Origin: Methanomicrobiaceae archaeon
GTDB lineage: Archaea > Halobacteriota > Methanomicrobia > Methanomicrobiales > Methanomicrobiaceae
Assembly (NCBI GenBank): GCA_029762625.1
Contig: JARVGI010000001.1
Span: 186,001 to 250,000 of the forward strand
Length of the DNA stretch: 64,000 nucleotides
Reading direction: 5' to 3'
Under the pieces are notes generated by a model, which was given only the letters and a program-made list of their open reading frames with translations, did not search any database and was not told where the DNA came from. Of this stretch, positions 39,516 to 41,111 are shown piece after piece; within the stretch, counting starts at the first letter, position 1; every line of letters begins with the position of its first letter. The position numbers and the translations under genes were made by a program.

Positions 39516-39587
39516 GTCCCGGTAGGGTAGTGGATATCCTGAGAGCCTCCGGAGCTTTCGACCCGGGTTCAAATCCCGGCCGGGGCG
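39516..39587 (+). tRNA. tRNA-Arg (anticodon CCG)
   Basis: A 72-base cloverleaf: acceptor GTCCCGG pairs with CCGGGGC with one G-T wobble; short D arm GGGT..TCCT; anticodon stem AGAGC/GCTTT around CTCCGGA, anticodon CCG reading CGG; variable CGAC; T stem CCGGG/CCCGG with TTCAAAT. Discriminator G. CCA is not encoded. A T-run (39604-39609) follows as terminator. Confidence 0.93.
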
Positions 39588-39607: not shown

Positions 39608-40903
39608 TTATTCTGTTTCCGGAACCCTGCGCATCGGCTGCACGTTCATGCCTTCCATCTCCCCCAGTGCGAACCGGAAGCGCTTGCGGATGTTCGGCGG
39701 GAGCTCGCTTTCGGGAATCGGGACGAACCCGAAGGTCTCGTAGAAGGAGATCAGCTCGAGCGTCGAGTGCATGTAGAGCGTTTCATGGCCGCAGGCATCG
39801 AGGAGCGCCTGCATGGCCGTGCGGGCATACCCCCGGTTCCTGAACTCGGGGAGGACGAAGACGCCGTCGACTTCGAGGCCGTCGGCATGCTGTTTGCACC
39901 GGGCGACGCCGGCAAGAATGGATTCCACGAACACCCCGAAGATGCGGTCGGTCTCCGGGTCCGCGGTCTGCTGGCGGTAGTGCAGCCACACCTCTTCTGC
40001 AAGGTGGAATTCGTCAGGACCGAGCTCGCGTGCCCGCACCTCGAGGACGATGTCGGGAGAGAGCACGAACACCGGATGCCGGGTGCGTTTCACCACACCG
40101 GCCGTGGTGCTTCCCAGCTGCACATTGCGCACGTAATCGGCCTTGCCGCAGCGGGGCATGATAATCAGGGAGACGTCCTGCGTATCGGCAACCTCGCATA
40201 TCCTGTCGACCGGGTTGCCCGTGCACACGAGCGACGTGATATGCTTCCCGTCCTCTCCGGCGTCGAGGACCATCCGTTCGAGACGCCGCTGTGCGGTGGT
40301 TTCAAAGAATGCAAGTTCGTTTTTCGACTCGGCGCTCCTGATGACATGCAACAGGATGAGCTCGCGGGGATCGCCGTTCTGCCGCAAAAAGACCATCATC
40401 TCCTCGGAAGGCCGGGAAAAATCGACCGGAGCGAGAACGCGGGAAAAAAGCGGCCTGACACTTCCGTTGCCGCCCCGGAGGGGATGCATGATGAGCACGT
40501 TTCTCCGGATCCTGCGCAGCACGCCCGACGAGACGCTCCCCAGGATCAGCCCGCTGATGATCCCCCGTCCCCTGGCCCCCATCACGACGAGCGAGGCGTC
40601 CACCTCCTCGGCGACGGAGCAGATGGCCTGCGGCACATCGCCATGCTCGATAAATTCAAGCCGTGTGCGCACCTTCATGCCCCGGACTTCGAGGCTTTCA
40701 CGCAGGGTTTCAAGGCCTGTTCGCGCCGATTCAAGCGGTGATTCGAGTATCCTGCCCGAGATCCAGTACTGCGTGGATGCACGGGGTGCGTCGAGCACGT
40801 GAAGCAGGACGATTTCATCGATGCCGGGTATCTGGTCGATATTATCGAAAATCGCACGTGAATAGTCGGAAAAATCGGTGGGGATCAGGACGGTCGCAAA
40901 CAT
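39608..40903 (-). CDS. USP-USP-GNAT fusion: tandem universal stress protein domains with a C-terminal acetyltransferase
   Basis: A 431-residue protein with three domains. USP1 (1-140) has the ATP-binding pattern G109-x2-G112-x9-G122-S123. USP2 (about 150-283) keeps the fold but its ATP motif is degenerate (MPRCGK...LGSTT). A linker leads to a GNAT N-acetyltransferase (about 288-425) with acetyl-CoA loop FVLPEFRNRGYARTAMQALL and LISFYETFGFV. A nucleotide-sensing USP pair joined to a protein/small-molecule acetylase suggests acetylation controlled by ATP state. ATG 40901-40903 (MFATVLIPTDFSDYS) fits the USP N-terminus; the open frame upstream is not conserved. Confidence 0.9.
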   Translation of the reverse strand: MFATVLIPTDFSDYSRAIFDNIDQIPGIDEIVLLHVLDAPRASTQYWISGRILESPLESARTGLETLRESLEVRGMKVRTRLEFIEHGDVPQAICSVAEEVDASLVVMGARGRGIISGLILGSVSSGVLRRIRRNVLIMHPLRGGNGSVRPLFSRVLAPVDFSRPSEEMMVFLRQNGDPRELILLHVIRSAESKNELAFFETTAQRRLERMVLDAGEDGKHITSLVCTGNPVDRICEVADTQDVSLIIMPRCGKADYVRNVQLGSTTAGVVKRTRHPVFVLSPDIVLEVRARELGPDEFHLAEEVWLHYRQQTADPETDRIFGVFVESILAGVARCKQHADGLEVDGVFVLPEFRNRGYARTAMQALLDACGHETLYMHSTLELISFYETFGFVPIPESELPPNIRKRFRFALGEMEGMNVQPMRRVPETE

Positions 40904-41111
40904 GGGAGAGCTCCGGGCGGCGGCACATGAGGGGGGAGGGGGGAGTGGTATCATGGGGGGGAAACTTCGTGAGAAACCTTCAACCGGGAACTTCATATAC
41001 TGTACGGTTTGGATATTCCGTTATCCGCAACTGGTACACTCATCGGCCAGACCGGGCGCCCCCCCGGAACACGGCGATACTGACAAGTAGCTGGAAAGCG
41101 ATGAACGCTCT

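Follow-up and report, generated by a model that had tools for sequence, protein, structure and literature searches.

To our knowledge, little is known about how protein acetylation is controlled in archaea. The closest described systems are mostly bacterial: the inputs named for type III GNATs are cAMP, NADP-binding, and ACT domains, the acetylase MsPat modifies a universal stress protein (USP), and acuABC combines a GNAT and an HDAC (PMC8556138). Among archaea, the pat2 gene of Haloferax volcanii adjoins a UspA gene (PMC12323606). A literature search, with most subscription journals lying outside its coverage, returned no paper on a USP-GNAT fusion or on a chemosensory acetyltransferase.

The USP-USP-GNAT gene described here was found in a 64,000-nucleotide stretch of DNA from a Methanomicrobiaceae archaeon, the whole of which is called the window below (Table 1). 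In the alignment, homologues begin at the same MFxxVLIPTD as the 431-aa window protein. The gene appears solitary, with a hypD-like ORF (identified by eye) and a tRNA-Arg gene on one side, both on the forward strand, and on the other a small ORF that runs divergently. A gap of 20 bp separates the end of the tRNA-Arg (CCG), at window positions 39516-39587 (+), from the 3′ end of the USP-USP-GNAT gene, and a T-run just past the tRNA could be its terminator.

Table 1. Features of the USP-USP-GNAT gene and its product, in window coordinates
Feature	Position	Strand	Details and basis
USP-USP-GNAT gene	39608..40903	-	ORF, 431 aa; ATG 40903, stop TAA 39608-39610; start common to homologues
GGAG Shine-Dalgarno-like site	40911..40914	-	7 nt upstream of ATG; read from sequence
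USP1 domain, residues 1-141	40481..40903	-	Pfam PF00582 best stretch 1-139; AF2 model
USP1 nucleotide loop G109-x2-G112-x9-G122-S123, intact	40535..40579	-	Sequence and alignment
USP2 pseudo-domain, residues 153-285	40049..40447	-	Second Pfam Usp stretch; own HMM
USP2 degenerate loop P250-R251-x-G253-x2-D256-x7-G264-S	40109..40156	-	Homologue alignment
GNAT domain, residues 290-428	39620..40036	-	Pfam PF00583; family alignment
Acetyl-CoA pyrophosphate loop R355-x-x-G358-x-A360	39824..39841	-	R/G/A invariant in 30/30 homologues
Glu344 codon, 11 residues before loop Arg	39872..39874	-	Invariant in 30/30 homologues
Tyr388 codon, candidate general acid	39740..39742	-	28/30 homologues

Usp and GNAT were the only families matched by Pfam in the window protein, PF00582 over two stretches (E 4e-36, 125.1 bits against a gathering score of 24) and PF00583 (Acetyltransf_1) over residues 300-393 (E 1e-10, 42.4 bits against 20.7). 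The Pfam order and the AlphaFold2 model (mean pLDDT 85.7, pTM 0.77) place an N-terminal ligand-type domain ahead of a single C-terminal GNAT. The USP1 loop reads G109-ARG-RGIISGLIL-G122-S, an exact G-2x-G-9x-G(S/T) ATP motif, and the USP2 loop reads P250-RCG-x10-G264-ST, in which the first Gly is gone and one residue is too many; this failure of the ATP motif (first Gly replaced, spacing 10) is shared by nearly all aligned homologues. The GNAT loop, R355-NRGY-A360, satisfies the R/Q-x-x-G-x-G/A pattern, and E344 occupies what we take to be the general-base position of Gcn5. Pfam, motif reading, and alignment thus bear out the initial annotation, which had described two USP domains, the first with a full ATP motif and the second degenerate, in one chain with a GNAT carrying an intact acetyl-CoA loop. 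The best Foldseek matches in the PDB to the N-terminal part were the tandem USPs Rv2623 (3cis), 3loq, and TTHA0350-ATP (3ab8), and lower matches were the single-domain GNATs YjcF, RimI, and Gcn5. The same annotation had proposed an archaeal counterpart of mycobacterial PatA, which stands as an analogy of layout and no further, since Pfam found neither a cyclic-nucleotide-binding domain nor any known type III input domain (cAMP, ACT, NADP Rossmann) in the window protein, and PatA was absent from its PDB sequence matches.

The full USP-USP-GNAT architecture was recovered from 105 of the 232 genomes of the class and 22 of its 40 genera, with no internal stop among the matches listed; a few relatives are truncated where a contig stops or carry USPs of reduced length. 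Frequent separate functional halves betraying a sequencing fusion were not found, and such a fusion was rejected by the conservation of the full-length gene across these genomes. One MAG contig (L071:3500-5900) holds a copy frameshifted in USP2 with an HDAC gene just downstream. The GNAT family itself is present in 168 of the 232 genomes. Because its matches outside Methanomicrobiales in the phylum sample reach only E 1e-9 to 1e-11, whereas those listed inside score 1e-29 or better, the family looks specific to this order; in a species-wide contig scan, all 80 named loci kept were titled Methanomicrobiales or unclassified Euryarchaeota. The possibility that the family is common to Haloarchaea was rejected, the matches there being generic GNATs at E 1e-9 to 1e-11, and among eight such loci a USP-like ORF was present at only one, where it overlaps in the opposite orientation.

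Conservation is uneven along the chain, with a mean pairwise identity of 62% for the GNAT versus 36-37% for the USPs. R355, G358, A360, E344, and D346 are invariant in 30 aligned homologues and Y388 is kept in 28, and the loss of acetyl-CoA-binding residues in homologues, which would have counted against the initial annotation, was not found. USP2 carries a signature of its own, R251-x-G253-x2-D256-x7-G264, in which R251, G253, and G264 are invariant and D256 is kept in 29 of 30; as a whole it is absent from the 11 readable tandem USPs without GNAT, nearly all of which keep normal spacing. The USP1 ATP motif is intact in 36 of 68 distinct homologues and is lost across the whole Methanoculleus branch, and since the GNAT there is intact, nucleotide binding is not needed for the protein to be conserved. 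When the same 68 homologues are sorted by the presence of an upstream sensor gene, 36 have an intact motif and no sensor, 25 a broken motif and a sensor, 7 a broken motif and no sensor, and none an intact motif with a sensor, an association that comes from about two lineages (Methanoculleus and L011) and fits the replacement of one input by another.

Other input modules accompany the same GNAT. It forms fusions with TM-PAS-HATPase_c proteins that are about 615-690 aa long, follows a TM-PAS-HATPase sensor as a separate gene, and in the Methanocalculus genus group is joined in one chain to a reduced USP pair of 200 aa (profile match to tandem USPs with probability 89, E 2.5e-6); further forms stand alone or bear an N-terminal extension of about 80 aa. 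This extension is conserved (DxTLLTLYxLAGEESGGFVTF...) in Methanoregula proteins of about 220-240 aa (L094, L107, L128, and similar loci), and it had no Pfam match in the two scanned (L123, L169). On contig C22 of the window genome, a second GNAT of the family (L039:3779-4222) lies 124 bp downstream of a single-domain USP gene with an intact ATP motif (L039:3170-3655), forming a split USP/GNAT pair. The PAS-HATPase sensors are related to histidine kinases, but the phospho-acceptor His is missing in most of them: it is absent in 20 of 20 GNAT-fused sensors, and N, S, R, or D takes its position in the Methanoculleus sensors directly upstream of USP-USP-GNAT (L064:3838-5193 and about 25 sister loci), whereas all eight control kinases fetched from the window's own genome have it. 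The exceptions are four sensors beside the reduced-USP form, which keep the His as HG and not HD. ATP binding by the GNAT-linked sensors is plausible because a simple pattern check found the HATPase G1 and G2 boxes kept in almost all.

The sensors linked to GNATs group in a single clade (SH-aLRT 99). In the GNAT tree, whose root is placed by a very distant outgroup, the sensor-linked GNATs nest among the USP-USP-GNATs (98/93, 95/88, 95/80, 96/87), next to lineages with a sensor gene directly upstream. The tree does not show the USP-USP-GNATs as a single clade, an arrangement that the AU test does not firmly reject (p 0.057), so that an origin of the sensor-linked GNATs among USP-USP-GNATs is likely but not certain.

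In the genomes examined, unfused sensor-GNAT forms close a chemosensory (CheW-MCP-CheA) operon. In four genomes (G034, G013, G014, and G197), the sensor and GNAT come after genes encoding CheW, a Cache/HAMP MCP, CheA (HPt-HATPase-CheW-REC), and a REC-HATPase kinase, identified by scanning a selection of these proteins across the genomes, and a fifth (G195) has the same layout by gene order. At L169 (G197:C2:1017500-1037400) and L173, a chemosensory operon ending in the PAS-HATPase sensor and GNAT is followed by genes for an HDAC, a GNAT of the N80 type, and a USP-USP-GNAT, all in a span of about 14 kb that may be an acetylation-signalling island. Across 40 genomes, 9 pairs of an HDAC-family gene and a GNAT family member stand no more than 2 kb apart, versus 0.3 expected under random placement, a count from related and non-independent genomes (four of family f1 and five of genus g18). 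The HDAC gene is downstream of USP-USP-GNAT on the same strand at L071, L075, and L090, and farther down at L069. Beside the GNAT at L170 (G008:C1:119500-130500), both the sensor gene and the HDAC gene are interrupted, apparently through insertion of transposase-like ORFs (judged by eye), and the GNAT is intact. The window genome has two HDAC genes, both on other contigs and neither near USP-USP-GNAT, and no Sir2. Most cases of linkage to HDAC and chemosensory genes belong to sensor-linked relatives of few independent lineages, and neighbours are conserved at lineage level, none over the whole order.

The GNAT family thereby appears as a recurrent signalling output coupled to several alternative input modules. 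By analogy, the window protein is probably a regulated acetyltransferase working like bacterial type III GNATs, and it possibly acts on proteins. The earlier idea of USP-controlled acetylation keeps its core of a regulated acetyltransferase, given the conserved architecture, the loop and Glu invariant in 30 of 30 homologues, the other sensory modules, and the occasional deacetylase gene; its suggestion of ATP or AMP sensing is weakened by the loss of the USP1 motif in the Methanoculleus branch and by a USP2 that is a pseudo-domain throughout. We infer the ligand, the direction of regulation, and the substrate as follows. USP1 would bind ATP or a related nucleotide, as its motif suggests, and is predicted to form with the USP2 pseudo-domain an intramolecular tandem like Rv2623; ligand occupancy might then shift the USP pair and turn the C-terminal GNAT up or down, as in type III GNATs. 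The GNAT, with its conserved loop, would use acetyl-CoA, with Glu344 and Tyr388 as likely catalytic residues, and its most likely targets would be protein lysines, deacetylated by an HDAC-type enzyme as gene linkage in relatives suggests. A signal-regulated acetyltransferase with the USP pair as input is the best joint explanation that the sequence offers, and with nucleotide ligand and lysine substrate included we regard it as evenly poised between right and wrong.

It is rather unlikely that the GNAT instead acetylates a small amine or metabolite (a polyamine, amino acid, or toxic compound), with the USP pair as its stabiliser or its link to energy state and with an acetylpolyamine amidohydrolase as the linked HDAC-family enzyme. 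Coupling to chemosensory and kinase-like sensors, like the Glu at the Gcn5 position, suits protein acetylation equally or better, and no polyamine gene came to notice in the recurrent neighbours inspected; yet the GNAT's PDB sequence matches include spermine/spermidine acetyltransferases and ElaA. The HDAC family also includes polyamine deacetylases (PMC8556138). We think it improbable that the USP domain is a substrate or docking partner rather than a sensor, with the GNAT acetylating USPs in cis or trans like the mycobacterial cAMP-dependent acetylase. This would agree with a USP being the physiological substrate of MsPat (PMC8556138), with the place of H. volcanii pat2 beside a UspA gene (PMC12323606), and with the split USP and GNAT neighbours in G000, but none of the lysines in the USP half is shared by as many as half of the 30 homologues, and the replacement of the USP pair by a kinase-like sensor in related genes fits an input role. 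Autoacetylation of the USP half at a fixed site was rejected on the same absence of a conserved Lys. That the domains are fused but not functionally coupled, or that the fusion arose in assembly, is very improbable: separate USP-USP paralogues and stand-alone GNATs do occur in Methanomicrobiales, but the architecture spans 105 genomes and 22 genera with no internal stops among the matches listed, its specific USP2 signature is absent from USP pairs without GNAT, and alternative input modules are swapped in.

More tentatively, the window protein could be the nucleotide-sensing form of a Methanomicrobiales acetylation-signalling system. Its output would be the order-specific GNAT family; a USP nucleotide sensor, a PAS-HATPase sensor that resembles histidine kinases but lacks the His, and a chemosensory array would be interchangeable inputs; and an HDAC-type enzyme would be the eraser. 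Such an archaeal system would be previously undescribed. If the USP pair gates the GNAT, universal stress proteins would gain an enzymatic output and acetylation would be linked to energy state. Judging by the relatives, acetylation may serve chemosensory and kinase-like sensors in place of phosphotransfer or alongside it.

Like the type III bacterial GNATs (mycobacterial PatA/KATms with a cAMP domain, the ACT-GNAT AAPatA, and the NADP-binding MxPat), the window protein joins an N-terminal small-ligand-type domain to a single C-terminal GNAT in one chain, with the catalytic Glu in the same position; unlike them, it is archaeal and has a tandem USP input outside those named in PMC8556138, with putative ligand and allostery. 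It shares two USP domains in one chain and the USP1 ATP motif with the tandem USPs (Rv2623, TTHA0350, and Archaeoglobus 3loq) and departs from them in its degenerate USP2 loop, with its own conserved R-x-G-x2-D, and in its appended GNAT. The linkage of GNAT and HDAC-type genes in Bacillus subtilis acuABC (GNAT AcuA, regulatory AcuB, and HDAC-type AcuC) recurs in relatives of the window protein, whose regulatory part is however fused in cis and whose own-genome HDACs are on other contigs. Haloferax volcanii Pat1 and Pat2 are likewise archaeal GNAT lysine-acetylase candidates, pat2 lying beside a UspA gene, but they are separate genes, and outside Methanomicrobiales the window GNAT family finds only weak generic GNAT matches.
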